Source of the DNA: Planctomycetota bacterium | GTDB lineage: Bacteria > Planctomycetota > Phycisphaerae > Sedimentisphaerales > Anaerobacaceae | Direction: 5' to 3' | Assembly (NCBI GenBank): GCA_019456255.1 | Contig: VRUG01000004.1 | Span: forward strand, 62,001-126,000 | DNA length: 64,000 nt | Shown here: one piece after another, positions 57,265-64,000 of the stretch | How the letters are laid out: every line of letters begins with the position of its first letter | Position numbering within the stretch: the first letter of the stretch is position 1 | Translations under genes and position numbers: made by a program | Notes under the pieces: generated by a model | Databases searched by the model: none | What the model saw: only the letters and a program-made list of their open reading frames with translations | What the model was told of the DNA's origin: nothing

Positions 57265-58539
57265 ATGGCATCTATACACGGAAACTGGTTTCATTCGAGA
57301 AGTAGTTCTCATTTGGGTGAACTTTTGACAGTGAGAAGCTTGGTTTTAGAAAGCCAAAAACCAGAATATATTGGATTTTCTTGGTCAGCTGGTAGACAAA
57401 ATAATCAAAAAATGTATCAATTTGCTGCAGTAGCAAATATACAACCTTCCACAATGCAAACTAAAATTCGCACGATGATACGTTACGGATTTTTAAAGGA
57501 GGGTAGTATTTGTCCTCTTGTTTGGACAAGAATGGGAAGTCTTTGGAATGATCTTTATACGGTTGGAAATATAGCAGCAGCAAAACAGATTTATGAATTG
57601 ATATTAACCACTTCCCTTGCGATGTTTGCATTCAATCAAACTAGTGCGCAGTATAGCCTAAACCCCACAAATGGTGAAATGCCTCTAAAATTTTTACTAA
57701 ATGCCTTAAGCAACGATAATTCGATATCATTAAAAGAATTTGCATCTTTAGTTGACGGAGGTACAACAAGAGTTGGCGGTAATAGTTCTTATTGGAGGAC
57801 AGACCTCGTAAATTCAGGATTATTTCAGGAAGATGGCGGTAGATTGTGTTGCACTGGCAAATACGAACGATTTGTCGAAAATATAAAAAAATTCACTCCA
57901 GATAGCTTGTTTACCGATGAAGATTGGCAAGCTATAAGGGATAATCCACTAATTAATTCTTCTCCTTTTAAGAATTCGGTAAAGGAGATTTTTGAAAACA
58001 TACTACAGCAACAAAACATAGAGGAACAAATCACCGATGGAATTTATACAGCTCCAATTGTAGATGTTATTTCGGAACAGGAGGAATTGTATATACCAGA
58101 GATTGATATTTTAAGCACAAATACAAGATTTGCACAAAGTGTAAGACGTGTTAGGGTTGCGGCTTGGTCAATAAGAATCAAGAAGAAATACAATCATTTA
58201 TGTGTAGTTCCTAACTGTGATGTTAACGGGAAAATTTTTGTTGAAGCCGCACACATCAAGCCAGATAATATCCCAGAAGATATAATGCCACATAGGGCAC
58301 ACATACTCAACGGCCTCTGTTTATGTCGTCATTGTCATGTTGCTTTCGACAAAGGATATTTTTCATTGACCGACGATCACAAAATTATTACATCAGTTAA
58401 ACTTAATGAAATACCTGATCAAAATATTAAAACCGTCATTTTTTCCAGTTGCAACAGGCCAATAAAAAATCGGTTAGATAATCGATTACCGCTTGTTGAA
58501 TTTATACAATTTCATAGAACCAATCGTTTTAAAAGTTAG
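57265..58539 (+). CDS. HNH restriction endonuclease (putative)
   Basis: 424 residues. Two helical, winged-helix-like modules fill residues 1-240 and probably read DNA. The C-terminal HNH nuclease (about 310-370) has zinc cysteines Cys313/Cys318 and Cys354/Cys357, with His330 in EAAHIKP, Asn349 in HILNGLCLC and His358 in HCHVAFDKGYF, matching the HNH_2 pattern. It is followed at once by two DNA methyltransferases, so it is almost surely the nuclease of a restriction-modification system. An AAAGGAT site precedes the ATG. Low GC codon use marks it as transferred. Confidence 0.8.
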   Translation: MASIHGNWFHSRSSSHLGELLTVRSLVLESQKPEYIGFSWSAGRQNNQKMYQFAAVANIQPSTMQTKIRTMIRYGFLKEGSICPLVWTRMGSLWNDLYTVGNIAAAKQIYELILTTSLAMFAFNQTSAQYSLNPTNGEMPLKFLLNALSNDNSISLKEFASLVDGGTTRVGGNSSYWRTDLVNSGLFQEDGGRLCCTGKYERFVENIKKFTPDSLFTDEDWQAIRDNPLINSSPFKNSVKEIFENILQQQNIEEQITDGIYTAPIVDVISEQEELYIPEIDILSTNTRFAQSVRRVRVAAWSIRIKKKYNHLCVVPNCDVNGKIFVEAAHIKPDNIPEDIMPHRAHILNGLCLCRHCHVAFDKGYFSLTDDHKIITSVKLNEIPDQNIKTVIFSSCNRPIKNRLDNRLPLVEFIQFHRTNRFKS

Positions 58540-58546
58540 GGTATCA

Positions 58547-59977
58547 ATGCCTGAAGTTTTACATAACATACATTGTGATGGGTTTGAAGCTATAAGCTTA
58601 ACCGCCAAATCCTCGAAAAATCTTTCTCTATTTAAATCGGAAGATTCAAATCGACAAGCAGAGCAATTAAGGATATTTAGAAAGCTTGAAAAAAAACTTT
58701 TGCTTTTTAATACAAGTTCATTTGAGAATCAAGTTCACTTTCAATTTGCTTACCAAACACCTGTTCAAAGATGGTTTCCATATCGTGAAGGTTATTCGGT
58801 TGAACTTGTTAATTCGTTTATTAAAAGTTTAAAAATAAGCGGTAATATATTTGATCCTTTTTCTGGAAGCGGAACGACATTATTGGCAGCAAGAAACAAT
58901 AACATTAACTCACTAGGTGTTGACGTAAATCCGATATCTGTGCTGGTCGCTAGAGTTGAAAACGAAAAATATTCAACATTTAATATTAATAATATTAGGT
59001 CACAGATCGAAACCATCAAGGCATTAGAAAGGCCCAAACAAGAATACCAAACAACATTTAATTTGGCGAATAAAGTTTTTAATGCGGACATCCTTCAGTC
59101 TCTCTTGCACTTTAAAAACTATATTAAGTCGATAGAGGATAAAAAAATAAGAGACTTGGTGTTCGTGGCTTGGCTTTCAATAATTGAGGAAGTATCAAAT
59201 ATCAAGAAAGAAGGAAATGGAATCAAATATAAAAACAGAAAAAGAACACCTTCAGGCTACATTAACATTGATAAAGAAGTGTGGGAGAATCAAAATTTCC
59301 CAGAGGACAAATTTGTATTTGTAAAGTTTAAACTGTATAATCAACTAGAAGCTATTTTTTATGATGTCGTAAATAGTTATGGTAATTGTGAAAAACGTCC
59401 TAAAATTTATCAGGGGAGTTGCTTGGAGTTTAATAGATTATTTAGTGATGAAATTGAGCTCACTTTCTTTTCGCCTCCATATTGTAATTGCTTTGATTAT
59501 TTTGAAATACACAAAGTGGAGCTATGGTTGGGTGATTTTATAAAAGACAAAGAAGATTTTAGGAAATTGAGAAATACTGGTTTTCGTTCAAATACAAATT
59601 CTCTAAATTATAAGCCAATTGTTTATAAAAATAAAAATCTTGAATCACTAATTTCTCTTATAGACACAGAGAGGCTATGGAGTAAAAAAATCCCCAGTGT
59701 TATAAGGGGATACTTTGATGATACAAATACTTTATTGAATAAACTTTACGATCAAACTGTACATGGTGGACATGTTGGCATAGTGGTTGGTAATTCAGCT
59801 TATTCAGGTGTTATAATTCCTACTGATACATTAATTGTAGAAATAGCCCAGCAAATTGGTTTTAAAGTAAAAAATATTTTTGTTACTCGCCATCTAACAA
59901 CAAGTTCGCAACAGAAAAAAAAACTTTCCTCTTTAAAAAATTATTTACGAGAGAGTGTGATCATTATAGAAAAATGA
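58547..59977 (+). CDS. DNA methyltransferase 1 of the restriction-modification island
   Basis: 476 residues from ATG 58547, eight bases past the endonuclease stop codon and preceded by TTAGGG; a frame from 58493 would overlap the endonuclease. Motif I is DPFSGSGTT (103-111) and motif IV is SPPY (309-312). SPPY favours an N4-cytosine enzyme, though N6-adenine is possible. The roughly 200 residues between the motifs leave room for a target-recognition domain. It protects host DNA from the neighbouring nuclease. AT-rich codons as in the rest of the island. Confidence 0.82.
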   Translation: MPEVLHNIHCDGFEAISLTAKSSKNLSLFKSEDSNRQAEQLRIFRKLEKKLLLFNTSSFENQVHFQFAYQTPVQRWFPYREGYSVELVNSFIKSLKISGNIFDPFSGSGTTLLAARNNNINSLGVDVNPISVLVARVENEKYSTFNINNIRSQIETIKALERPKQEYQTTFNLANKVFNADILQSLLHFKNYIKSIEDKKIRDLVFVAWLSIIEEVSNIKKEGNGIKYKNRKRTPSGYINIDKEVWENQNFPEDKFVFVKFKLYNQLEAIFYDVVNSYGNCEKRPKIYQGSCLEFNRLFSDEIELTFFSPPYCNCFDYFEIHKVELWLGDFIKDKEDFRKLRNTGFRSNTNSLNYKPIVYKNKNLESLISLIDTERLWSKKIPSVIRGYFDDTNTLLNKLYDQTVHGGHVGIVVGNSAYSGVIIPTDTLIVEIAQQIGFKVKNIFVTRHLTTSSQQKKKLSSLKNYLRESVIIIEK

Positions 59978-61299
59978 GTAAAAAGCAAAAAATAATTTAT
60001 ATAAAAGAAATAATACCGGATAGAGTTAAGAATAATTCGGTTTTGAACATTTCTACAAAAGGGGTTACTTCTTTAACACATGGATTTCATAAATACCCAG
60101 GGAAATTTATTCCTCATATTCCTAGATGGGCTATTAATAAATATCTGAATGGTGATAAGGGAACAATTTTAGATCCCTTCTGTGGCTCAGGTACGACATT
60201 AATTGAAGGGGTATTGGCAGGCCATAACGTTGTTGGAATTGATATTGATCCTTTATCTTCTCTTATATCTAAAGTTAAAATTACGCCTGTAAATTTAAAG
60301 AAACTAAAAGAAATTGCGGATTGGCTTGTTCTATCCATTAAGAAAGCAAAAAAAGGGGAATTTAAACCTGAATGTGAGACAATTAATCATTGGTTTACGA
60401 AAGATGCTATTAATAAGTTATCGATTATTAGAACATCAATAAATCAGATCCCGGGGAAATTTGGTAATAGAAAATCCATAAAAGACATTCAAGACCTTTT
60501 GGTGGTTTGCTTTTCATCAATTATCAGACATGTTTCTAATGCAGACAACGAATCACAAAAAACATATGTCTCCCACACTAAAGTAAAAAATCCCAAAGAG
60601 GTTTATTCTGTTTTTTTCCCTAAACTGGAATTATTTATTGATAGGATCACGAAATTTACAAAATTAATTAATTCAGATGTGAGTGCCAAAATAAGCTGCA
60701 CAAGTAGTAATAAGTCGTTGCATCAAAAATTTAAGGTGATTAAATTTGACTTAGTAATTACTTCGCCACCTTATATAAAAGCCCTAGATTACATTTATAA
60801 CCAAATGGTAGAATTATTTTGGATTGGAGACTTGTTTGATCTACAGACTCAATCTAAACAGAATCAGAAAAAGGAAGGATATATTGGAACAAAACATCTA
60901 CGCAAGGCTAAGTTTAAGGATTACACGCCTTATAAAAACATATTTGGTATAAATAGACTCGATGAAAAACTCCAAGAGGTATTTGTCACAGATAAAAAGA
61001 ATGGGCATAAACATTCATTCGTTACATTTAAGTATTTTACTAACATGGAAAAACATTTTATTGAAATTGCTAAATGCATCTGTAAGGGAACACCTTATAT
61101 TATGGTTGTTGGAAATAGTACCGTAAGCAATATTTATTTTGATACGGTAGATTTTTTAATACAGATTGCTGAACAAAGTGGTTTTAAAGCAAGAAATAAA
61201 TGGGGATATGAAATTAAGAATCGTTATATGAGATTTGACAGAAAAGGGCGTGGAGGTATTATTGATATCGACTGGGTTATAGATTTCGTCAGAAAGTAA
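59974..61299 (+). CDS. DNA methyltransferase 2 of the restriction-modification island
   Basis: 441 residues. GFHKYPGKFIPHIPRWAIN (38-56) is a signature of a broad DNA methyltransferase family; motif I is DPFCGSGTT (67-75) and motif IV is SPPY (264-267). It overlaps the first methyltransferase by four bases (ATGA), so the two are translated together. The two enzymes are not close copies: N-termini and spacing differ. Two methyltransferases with one nuclease is the arrangement expected for an asymmetric recognition site, one enzyme per strand. Confidence 0.82.
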   Translation: MSKKQKIIYIKEIIPDRVKNNSVLNISTKGVTSLTHGFHKYPGKFIPHIPRWAINKYLNGDKGTILDPFCGSGTTLIEGVLAGHNVVGIDIDPLSSLISKVKITPVNLKKLKEIADWLVLSIKKAKKGEFKPECETINHWFTKDAINKLSIIRTSINQIPGKFGNRKSIKDIQDLLVVCFSSIIRHVSNADNESQKTYVSHTKVKNPKEVYSVFFPKLELFIDRITKFTKLINSDVSAKISCTSSNKSLHQKFKVIKFDLVITSPPYIKALDYIYNQMVELFWIGDLFDLQTQSKQNQKKEGYIGTKHLRKAKFKDYTPYKNIFGINRLDEKLQEVFVTDKKNGHKHSFVTFKYFTNMEKHFIEIAKCICKGTPYIMVVGNSTVSNIYFDTVDFLIQIAEQSGFKARNKWGYEIKNRYMRFDRKGRGGIIDIDWVIDFVRK

Positions 61300-61349
61300 T
61301 TCTATAGATTACGACAACCAGAGCGATAAAAATAGTTTCAAAAGAACAG

Positions 61350-61378
61350 TTGCAATTTATCTATTTTGGTGATATAAT
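61350..61378 (+). promoter_or_regulatory. Promoter of the leu operon
   Basis: TTGCAA, a 17-base spacer and a perfect TATAAT. The expected transcription start falls at 61384-61386, on the ATG of the leader ORF. This is one of the best promoter matches in the window. Confidence 0.75.
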
Positions 61379-61384
61379 ACTCGT

Positions 61385-61465
61385 ATGGCTAAAAACGAAA
61401 CAATTAAAGCACTCCCCAAAGGCTTAATCATAAGCCTTAGCCTGCTCTTGCGCCCCGGCGCATAA
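61385..61465 (+). CDS. Candidate leu leader peptide, leaderless
   Basis: A 26-codon ORF (MAKNETIKALPKG... ending ISLSLLLRPGA) whose ATG sits six bases beyond the -10 box, so translation would begin at the mRNA's first codon. Six of 26 residues are leucine, five of them among residues 14-22 and coded by TTA, CTT, CTG, CTC and TTG; three isoleucines are also present. Stalling at scarce leucyl-tRNA here would match attenuation in other leu operons. The stop codon is 113 bases before leuA. It could also be a chance ORF. Confidence 0.55.
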   Translation: MAKNETIKALPKGLIISLSLLLRPGA

Positions 61466-61524
61466 ACGAACCCTACATACAAAAAAACCCTATTTTTATT
61501 AAATTCGTAGCATTTTCAATGCTA
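61449..61524 (+). promoter_or_regulatory. Possible attenuator structures before leuA
   Basis: TGCGCC / GGCGCA overlaps the last leader codons and can fold as a hairpin. Downstream a perfect 7-bp hairpin TAGCATT / AATGCTA (61508-61524) precedes only three T residues, so it is a weak terminator. The GCGCA in the first hairpin recurs at 61527, allowing alternative pairing. This is compatible with attenuation but not proof. Confidence 0.35.
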
Positions 61525-61578
61525 TTTGCGCATAATGATACGTTAAATTCAGACAGAAAAACAATTTGGAGCTGAAAA

Positions 61579-63129
61579 ATGGCACAAAAACTAATCATAT
61601 TCGACACGACCCTGCGTGACGGCGAACAGGCCGCTGGCACAAGACTCGGAGCAAGAGAAAAACTCGAAATCGCCCGCCAGCTCGCCAGGCTAAAAGTCGA
61701 CGTCATAGAAGCTGGCTTTCCCGCTTCGTCGCCGGAAGATTTCAACGCCGTTAAGCTCATTTGCGAAAACCTCAAAACAGTAACCGTCTGCGGACTCACA
61801 CGCGCTATAACCAAAGACATCGACATCTGCGGAAAAGCTATCGCAAAAGCGAAACGCGCCAGGATCCATACAGGCGTCGGCGTCTCAGATATCCATATTA
61901 AGGGAAAGTTCGGAAGTGCAAAGTACGGCAAGACTATCGCCCAGAAAAAAGTCAACATCCTGAAGATGGCGGTAAAAGCTGTTAAGAGAGCGCGAAACTA
62001 TACCGACGACGTCGAATTCTACGCCGAAGATTCAGGCAGGGCAAATCGTAAGTTCCTCTACGAGATACTCGAAGCTGTCGTCGACGCAGGAGCTACAACT
62101 CTAAATATTCCGGACACCACCGGCTACGCAATACCCGAGCAGTATGGCCAACTTATCGCTGACATAAAGGCCAACGTGCCGAACATAAAAAAAGCCATCA
62201 TCAGCGTACACTGTCACAACGATCTCGGGATGGCTGTCGCTAATACTTTAGCAGGCGTAAAAAACGGCGCAAGACAAATCGAAGGTACCATAAACGGCAT
62301 CGGCGAACGAGCAGGAAACGCCGCCATCGAAGAGGTCGTAATGGCCATCAAAACAAGAAAGGATTTCTTCGATATCGAAACAAAAATCGTAACGCCCCAG
62401 TTCTATCGTACAAGCAGAATGGTAGCTGACATGCTCGGCGTACCGGTACCAATAAATAAAGCCATCGTCGGAGACAATGCCTTCGCCCACAGTTCAGGGA
62501 TTCACGTTGACGGAGTACTGAAAAAACGAGAAACATACGAAATCATGAAGCCAAGCGATGTCGGCTCGCCGAAAAGCAAGGTCGTCCTGACCGCAAGAAC
62601 AGGCCGGCATGGCCTAAAGCACCGCCTCGAAGAGCTCGGATACAAATTAACTAAAGCTGAACTCGAGAAAACATATAAGAGGTTCATCGAAATTGCCGAC
62701 AAGAAAAACGAAGTCTTCGATGAAGACATTACTGCGATCATCAGCGACGAGATTCACGCCGTTGAGCATACGTATAAATTGCAGTATCTCCATGTCGCCT
62801 GCGGAACTGGAACGCTGCCGACCGCGAGTGTCAGAATCGAGACAAAGGGGAAATTTACACAGGCTGCCGCGTGCGGGGACGGACCGATTGATGCTGCCTA
62901 CCAAGCTATTAGAGACGCAACAGGACTCTCGCCAAAGCTTGAAAGCTATTCCATCAGAGCCGTCACCAGTGGTAAAGAGGCACTCGGAGAAGCTACGGTA
63001 AAAATTACCGCCAATGGAATACTTTTTGTTGGGCGAGGAGTTTCAACTGACATTATTGAAGCTTCCGCAAAAGCGTACGTAGATGCAATTAACAGAATGG
63101 TTGCTGCAAAAAAGAAAAGTAAAAAATAA
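61579..63129 (+). CDS. leuA: 2-isopropylmalate synthase
   Basis: First enzyme of leucine synthesis: joins acetyl-CoA to 2-ketoisovalerate. 516 residues, the usual bacterial length. HMGL-like TIM barrel with IFDTTLRDGEQAAG (6-19), the metal ligands in ISVHCHNDLGMAVANTLAG and the GERAGNAAIEEVVMA stretch; the C-terminal regulatory domain (about 390-510) is the leucine-feedback region. A TTGGAGC site precedes the ATG. leuC starts 11 bases after the stop codon. GC content returns to the level of the left part of the window, unlike the AT-rich island next to it. Confidence 0.96.
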   Translation: MAQKLIIFDTTLRDGEQAAGTRLGAREKLEIARQLARLKVDVIEAGFPASSPEDFNAVKLICENLKTVTVCGLTRAITKDIDICGKAIAKAKRARIHTGVGVSDIHIKGKFGSAKYGKTIAQKKVNILKMAVKAVKRARNYTDDVEFYAEDSGRANRKFLYEILEAVVDAGATTLNIPDTTGYAIPEQYGQLIADIKANVPNIKKAIISVHCHNDLGMAVANTLAGVKNGARQIEGTINGIGERAGNAAIEEVVMAIKTRKDFFDIETKIVTPQFYRTSRMVADMLGVPVPINKAIVGDNAFAHSSGIHVDGVLKKRETYEIMKPSDVGSPKSKVVLTARTGRHGLKHRLEELGYKLTKAELEKTYKRFIEIADKKNEVFDEDITAIISDEIHAVEHTYKLQYLHVACGTGTLPTASVRIETKGKFTQAAACGDGPIDAAYQAIRDATGLSPKLESYSIRAVTSGKEALGEATVKITANGILFVGRGVSTDIIEASAKAYVDAINRMVAAKKKSKK

Positions 63130-63140
63130 GGATTAGTAAA

Positions 63141-64000
63141 ATGGCTATGACAATTACTGAAAAAATACTCGCAAAGGCCGCCGGGCTTGACTCGGTTAAG
63201 CCAGGACAACTTATAGACGCTAATATCGACGTGGTAATGTGTCACGATGTCACTACCCCGCCGGCAATATCTATGCTACAGAAAAAAGGCATCGATAAGG
63301 TCTTCGACCCGGAAAAAATTATCGTAACACCGGACCATTTTCAGCCGGCAAAGGACATTCAAAGCGCTGAACTTCATAAAAGACTCGATAAGTGGGCAGT
63401 AAAACACGAGATCAAACATTATTACAAACTTGGAAAAGCTGGTGTATGTCACGCACTACTGCCTGAACAGGGACACATCAGACCTGGAGAAGTAATTGTT
63501 GGAGGTGACTCGCATACCTGTACATACGGTGCTTTCGGCGCTTTTAGTACTGGCGTCGGCTCCACCGACCTGGCCGCTACCATAGCAACCGGGCAGCTTT
63601 GGTTTAAAGTGCCGCCAACCATAAAAATTATCCTAAACGGAAAACTCGCCAAAGGCGTTTATAGTAAAGATGTAATACTTGACGTCATCGCAAGAATTGG
63701 TACAGACGGTGCGCTATACAAAGCCATGGAATTTACCGGCAGCACGCTCGCAAATCTGAGCATGGAATCTCGAATGACAATTACAAACATGGTGATAGAA
63801 GCTGGGGCAAAAAACGGAATCATCGAACTCGACAAAGTAACAAAGAAATATCTAAAGGAACATTTAGCGGAAAACAAAAAAGATTATACCGTTTTTGAAT
63901 CTGACCCGGATGCCGTATACGAATCTATCGAGGAATTTGACTGCTCAAAGTTAGAGCCTATAGTCGCTCTGCCTCATCTGCCCTCAGGAGGCGTACCCAT
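63141..64000 (+). CDS. leuC: 3-isopropylmalate dehydratase large subunit (cut by window end)
   Basis: The frame from ATG 63141 is open to the window edge (286 codons). It starts MAMTITEKILAKAAG, then NIDVVMCHDVTTPPAISML and EVIVGGDSHTCTYGAFGAFS, the signature of the aconitase superfamily with the first Fe-S cysteine at SHTCTYG. It isomerises 2- to 3-isopropylmalate with LeuD. The compact archaeal-type LeuC/homoaconitase branch is likely, given the short spacing. Not distinguishable here from homoaconitate hydratase, but linkage to leuA supports LeuC. Confidence 0.92.
   Translation, partial: MAMTITEKILAKAAGLDSVKPGQLIDANIDVVMCHDVTTPPAISMLQKKGIDKVFDPEKIIVTPDHFQPAKDIQSAELHKRLDKWAVKHEIKHYYKLGKAGVCHALLPEQGHIRPGEVIVGGDSHTCTYGAFGAFSTGVGSTDLAATIATGQLWFKVPPTIKIILNGKLAKGVYSKDVILDVIARIGTDGALYKAMEFTGSTLANLSMESRMTITNMVIEAGAKNGIIELDKVTKKYLKEHLAENKKDYTVFESDPDAVYESIEEFDCSKLEPIVALPHLPSGGVP

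Follow-up and report, generated by a model that had tools for sequence, protein, structure and literature searches.

Is the 2-isopropylmalate synthase gene leuA of a Planctomycetota bacterium controlled by a leucine-rich leader peptide whose message has no 5' untranslated region? The question is raised by a 64,000-nt stretch of its genome (the window), in which a first-pass annotation had picked out a consensus promoter that places the transcription start on the ATG of a 26-codon ORF with five leucines in nine codons, followed after a short inter-ORF region by leuA. leuA occupies 61579-63129, is 84-85% identical to its nearest relatives, and has its closest named database relatives among Phycisphaerae and Planctomycetota metagenome-assembled genomes. 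It is preceded by a Shine-Dalgarno (SD) sequence GGAG (61568-61571) and an aconitase-like ORF, which we take as a candidate leuC, begins behind it at 63141. The promoter P1 (61350-61378) consists of a -35 box TTGCAA (61350-61355), a 17-nt spacer and a -10 box TATAAT (61373-61378). The gap from this -10 box to the leader ATG is 6 nt; with standard -10 to +1 spacing the predicted start is A61385, the first base of that ATG. The ORF (61385-61465, stop TAA at 61463-61465) encodes MAKNETIKALPKGLIISLSLLLRPGA, with five leucines in codons 14-22. The geometry and the leucine count were thus described correctly; the inter-ORF region is in fact not short, at 113 nt in the window and 85-348 nt in relatives. 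All the leader, promoter, hairpin, tract and leuA features described here are on the plus strand. Just 5' of this locus lie two adjoining ORFs (58493-59977 and 59974-61299) with the motifs FDPFSGSGTTL and LDPFCGSGTTL, which look like DNA methyltransferases, and beside them an HNH-like ORF (57265-58539): these possibly form a restriction-modification or defence cluster.

Taken alone, the window is weak evidence for the leader ORF. Five leucines in nine codons also occur in 9 of its 466 short ATG ORFs, an exact TATAAT lies 6-10 nt upstream of three of its short ATG ORFs, and the promoter count of the leader region is close to the shuffle mean (3 vs 2.7). In one genome, then, such ORFs arise by chance, and the locus could be unremarkable intergenic DNA in which a short ORF happens to occur. 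That explanation is refuted by conservation of the leader over 59 genera with constraint on leucine at the amino-acid level, and we give it a negligible probability: the ORF is taken as real because 88 non-redundant relatives share the ORF itself, its leucine codons and the spacing between promoter and ATG.

For this comparison the leuA upstream regions of relatives were fetched and the short ORFs in them read without any model. Where enough sequence upstream was available, almost all relatives have an ORF ending in LLGLSLLLR plus R, P, Q or L, or similar, directly 3' of a TTGCAA/TATAAT promoter and with a TGCGCC...GGCGCA hairpin at its stop codon. Among the best-matching leuA loci uncut by a contig end only two, from another family of the same order (L017 and L019), are without it. 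Of 161 genomes from the order, 109 are matched by a covariance model of the leader built from 23 relatives, each exactly once; among 397 genomes of the class, the model matches none outside the order. All 118 parsed leaders lie upstream of leuA; 100 of those parsed 5' of leuA are distinct, and removal of near-duplicates leaves the 88 counted throughout, with peptides of 16-51 aa. Leaders numbered L117 onward were found by the model, and the features are most safely judged where it imposes nothing, namely in the -35 box, the choice of codons, the tail and the element close to leuA. The ORF is kept and its leucine codons do not drift freely among the 88, the two respects in which the first-pass annotation had held that a check in related genomes might go against its proposal.

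The position of P1 is as regular as the ORF. Its spacer is 16-17 nt in 85 of the 88 relatives, with exact TATAAT in 55 and exact TTGCAA in 37; the end of the -10 box lies 4-11 nt from the leader start codon in all 88 (mode 7), and that codon is ATG in 87. When the 70 upstream nt are scanned without a prior, the best sigma-70 site falls 6-11 nt 5' of the leader ATG in 78 of 87 scored sequences, and five have a better site farther upstream. An SD-like word precedes just one of the 88 leaders vs 87 of the 88 leuA genes. By sequence prediction, the leu leader therefore shows the two marks of a leaderless mRNA, a +1 on or near the start codon and no SD, which would leave a 5' UTR of 0-4 nt. One published analysis, using a single genome for the phylum, places the Planctomycetes among those with few SD genes, and with the base bias expected of leaderless mRNA and/or of ribosomal protein S1 use (PMC5397173).

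The putative sensor is the run CTG CTC TTG (Leu-Leu-Leu) followed by an invariant CGC (Arg), at 61442-61453. Leucine stands at -1, -2 and -3 from this CGC in 88, 75 and 82 of the 88 relatives, respectively. The -2 position uses all six leucine codons (CTC 25, CTT 18, CTA 14, CTG 14, TTG 3, TTA 1) and the -3 position four of them. The residue after the arginine varies (R, P, L or Q), because only the first base of its codon, a C, is in a hairpin stem. The retention of leucine with free codons, together with this variable residue, makes the constraints on the peptide (leucine) separable from those on the RNA (the stem). A leucine-rich ORF before leuA in 88 non-redundant relatives with free codon choice is what is expected of an amino-acid leader peptide. 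Since the leucine codons are conserved before leuA, we regard it as very probable that the element senses leucine through the ribosome translating this leaderless leader peptide.

Two hairpins accompany the sensor. H1 (61419-61438; AAGGCTTA-ATCA-TAAGCCTT) lies inside the ORF and overlaps the first leucine codons of the run. A strong H1-like hairpin is found in 76% of leaders vs 30% of synonymous-codon shuffles (Wilcoxon p 9e-16), and two-sided changes occur in all five modelled pairs (57 cells vs 30.8 in shuffles, 0 of 500 reaching this), with far lower counts in slid registers, so that H1 covaries. The alignment behind the pair counts was fitted to the covariance model and so leans toward it, while the shuffle test is independent of the alignment. 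That test is strong with the leaders' own codon usage and weak with leuA codon usage (mean z -0.42); the support for H1 hence depends partly on the null chosen, and the pair counts agree with it. H2 (61449-61462; TGCGCCCCGGCGCA) has the stop codon directly 3' in the window; across the relatives the stop codon falls in the H2 loop in 50 of 88 and just past the 3' arm in 36. Its stem core (UGCGCC/GGCGCA) is nearly invariant in the 88 sequences while its loop ranges from 2 to 43 nt, and the outermost pair shows modest covariation (Fisher p 0.003, uncorrected for relatedness). Near-invariance of sequence, beyond what pairing needs, suggests a sequence-specific role that the loading of Rho discussed below leaves unexplained. 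In a consensus fold of 27 relatives from the ATG to leuA, pair probabilities are 0.93-1.0 for H2 and about 0.3 for H1. The two hairpins do not overlap, and of the mutually exclusive structures that the annotation had suggested folding for, this fold contains no competing antiterminator pair, the one other pairing in it being a weak one between the leucine run and the leuA SD. The window leader RNA as a whole folds no better than shuffles (z -0.98). Pairing of the H2 arms with the leuA-proximal region was also considered and set aside: TGCGC occurs in 17% of tails vs 5% in shuffles, too rare as a general rule. As a separate observation, five of the 88 leaders (L004, L007, L026, L153 and L173) have an H2 loop lengthened by a 39-nt segment that is in frame and palindromic. 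A single other related copy was found in six genomes searched, and so it is not an abundant repeat in those genomes.

Classic attenuation requires a U-tract terminator and an antiterminator that competes with it. Neither is found at the leu leader: nothing resembling a terminator lies in 60900-61800, H2 is not followed by a U tract in the 88 relatives, and the consensus fold shows no mutually exclusive antiterminator. No Rfam family reaches its gathering score in the window, and a search of 61300-61620 at E up to 5 gives one match at chance level. What follows H2 instead is a 38-nt G-free tract (61469-61506), a candidate Rho-loading (rut-like) region. In the 88 relatives the first 25 nt past H2 contain 1-6% G vs about 20-25% from 50 nt on, C exceeds G past H2 in 99%, and the composition is C- and A-rich for about 25 nt and then T-rich at 25-40 nt. 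YC dimers are twice as dense in the tract as downstream, the leucine run having the same YC density as the tract, and in 95% of relatives the C/G ratio exceeds 2 in 40-nt windows that begin 15-20 nt from the H2 start. The genome encodes Rho (match of 663.6 bits), so that two sequence features expected of a Rho-dependent attenuator, an unstructured C-rich, G-poor region after the leader stop and rho, are present. The first-pass proposal of leaderless leu attenuation therefore stands as to a conserved leucine leader peptide before leuA without a 5' UTR or SD, and lacks support as to the classic terminator/antiterminator form.

Farther along the tail is a promoter-like element that the first-pass annotation had not noted, P2 (61508-61536): TAGCAT, a 17-nt spacer and CATAAT. 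CATAAT occurs 60-191 nt past H2 in 65 of 88 relatives vs 12% expected, and several of the remaining relatives have GATAAT or similar at this position. The common pattern is TRGMAW, 17 nt, CATAAT, with a T.G.A.TT block at a fixed distance from CATAAT. The first base of the -10-like box is C in all 65, never T. The exact pattern has one occurrence in the source genome, at this locus. A role as a general sigma-factor or regulon site was rejected, since the exact pattern has one occurrence in each of 5 out of 13 genomes, at leuA in three of them and elsewhere in two. P2 can be read as a weak conserved promoter, which leaves the missing TATAAT unexplained; it is either such a promoter or a specific binding site. 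As a promoter, it may start transcription downstream of the leader, giving a basal leuA transcript, and might thereby bypass the leader. The tails of L004, L011 and L034 between H2 and leuA contain insertions with 'AACCACGGAT...' and matching 'ATCCGCG/CGGTTAA' stretches: these lengthen the H2-leuA distance and leave the leader and the P2 element undisturbed.

Attenuators of ordinary construction are predicted elsewhere in the same genomes. Their trpE homologues have leaders such as MRCSYCEKMISCWWPEG, MRQINRRNTANWWWPEG and MQNNYGKLFGWWRPVG, that of the source genome being locus L235 on contig C89 (G000); a WW or WWW is present at L235, L234, L236, L237, L243 and L244. By promoter position (TTGACA-N17-TTTAAT/TAGAAT, 9 nt to the ATG) these too are leaderless, and they show a stable hairpin followed by a T run, a U-tract terminator. 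They thus appear to be classic attenuators without a 5' UTR. Attenuators of the usual design are thus predicted for the order's trp genes, and the leu element has a different construction. No similar leader was seen before ilvB in a simple ORF screen of 14 loci.

We propose the following sequence of events, which is read from anatomy. Transcription from P1 would start at the ATG or within about 4 nt of it, and ribosomes would enter directly at the AUG. When leucine is plentiful, the ribosome would clear the leucine run, terminate at the stop codon that H2 holds or adjoins, and depart; its departure would expose a pyrimidine-rich stretch made up of the leucine-codon run, the looped-out H2 and the G-free tract, on which Rho could load and halt transcription ahead of leuA. 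When leucine runs short, the ribosome would wait at the last leucine codons, covering the run and the H2 5' arm, and would hinder Rho, allowing leuA to be transcribed; P2 would supply a basal leuA message. Rho is favoured because rho is encoded, the tract is rut-like in composition and the spacing up to leuA varies freely (85-348 nt), which Rho allows and a folded switch allows less easily. Since a stalled ribosome leaves the G-free tract uncovered, the block to Rho would need the leucine run or H2 to be within the loading site. There are precedents of two kinds: in E. coli tna the stalled ribosome blocks an overlapping rut, and in mgtL the stall favours a stem-loop that masks the Rho site (PMC5021804). 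Against a Rho mechanism counts the observation that stalling typically raises Rho termination (PMC5021804). We hold the Rho-dependent step to have an even chance of being correct, and likewise judge the whole chain, a leucine-responsive ribosome-mediated attenuator with a leaderless sensor and a Rho step, to be evenly poised. Its generalization is more tentative and somewhat doubtful: an order-wide attenuator class in which a leaderless peptide and a fixed-sequence stop-codon hairpin are combined with a G-free Rho-loading tract that replaces the intrinsic terminator, with the starved ribosome keeping Rho off.

Three other accounts of the element were weighed against the Rho-dependent one. Control could be translational, as proposed for the actinobacterial LEU element, with the leucine run pairing with the leuA SD and a stalled ribosome freeing it. 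The gene and the leaderless leucine leader are indeed the same as in Actinobacteria (PMC1262725, PMC8079986), the lowest-energy fold of the window pairs GCUCU of the run with GGAGC at the SD, and the run:SD pairing has a probability of 0.36 in the consensus fold of 27 relatives. Such a fold is, however, expected because leucine codons pair with GGAG anyway, and codon choice does not support sequestration: CTCC is in 43% of runs vs 43% of synonymous shuffles, and the duplex energy is slightly weaker than in shuffles (mean z +0.26). With the stop-to-leuA distance varying over 85-348 nt, and with the G-free tract and H2 left unexplained, we consider this account unlikely.

H2 itself gives rise to another account, in which a protein or nuclease recognizes UGCGCC/GGCGCA, or a leader RNA ending at H2 acts in trans. 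It draws on the invariance of the H2 stem core, in which H2 is unlike H1, on the freedom of loop length (the 39-nt extension in five of 88 included) and on the leaderless trpL transcript of Sinorhizobium, which acts in trans (PMC7298713). Yet it comes without a candidate protein or target, and part of the invariance may reflect the Leu-Arg of the peptide and a stem that is short; we regard it as rather unlikely. Classic intrinsic termination, with a 2:3 antiterminator against a 3:4 terminator, would accommodate two hairpins that flank or overlap the sensor codons, and this is also the anatomy of the trp leaders in these genomes. At leuA, however, the 20 nt past H2 are A/C-rich, with the T-rich zone 25-40 nt off, and neither the scan for terminator-like sites nor the consensus fold supplied the conserved parts that this account calls for, making it quite improbable.

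Leaderless attenuators are already known in Actinobacteria and Sinorhizobium, and leaderlessness, which the first-pass annotation had put forward as a variant form of leu control, has in that sense been described before (PMC8079986, PMC7298713). LeuL1 of Streptomyces lividans (MRFGLLLLSCRGEGL) precedes leuA, is leaderless and has no typical terminator (PMC8079986); in Sinorhizobium meliloti the trpL transcript begins at the ATG of the leader ORF (PMC7298713); and the title of Morbach 2000, as cited in PMC4046766, speaks of a Corynebacterium glutamicum ilvBNC leader peptide formed without a ribosome binding site. Novelty appears to lie in the terminator-less architecture and in the lineage, to which the depth of conservation can be added, and no paper on leader-peptide control in Planctomycetes was found in the literature searched. 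The order offers a comparative case, its leucine and tryptophan genes both being preceded by predicted leaderless leader peptides, of which the leucine one has no intrinsic terminator. Leaderless entry would remove SD-dependent initiation from the ribosome-polymerase timing that is central to attenuation, and the leu system would hence lend itself naturally to tests of coupling and of amino-acid sensing through Rho.

The closest likeness is to LeuL1 and the actinobacterial LEU element: a leaderless leader with a leucine run before leuA and no typical Rho-independent terminator (PMC8079986, PMC1262725). In LEU, the run of leucine codons is proposed to pair with the SD of leuA, about a conserved pseudoknot; the planctomycete leader shows no SD-pairing codon choice, and has its leucine run beside a stop-codon hairpin plus a G-free tract. 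With the classic leu attenuator (enterobacterial leuL; the Rfam Leu leader) it shares consecutive leucine codons before leuA and hairpins over the sensor region, but unlike leuL it has no SD, 5' UTR, U-tract terminator or Rfam match at gathering scores. Like E. coli tnaC and Salmonella mgtL, it combines a leader peptide with a subsequent candidate Rho-loading region and no intrinsic terminator (PMC5021804). In those systems the stalled ribosome keeps Rho off (PMC5021804), whereas at the leu element the action of Rho is a prediction; moreover, tnaC senses free tryptophan by nascent-peptide arrest, whereas the leu leader would respond to codon starvation. Finally, Sinorhizobium trpL and the order's own trp leaders have the same ATG-first design as the leu leader, and it is in their ordinary terminators that the order's trp leaders part from it.
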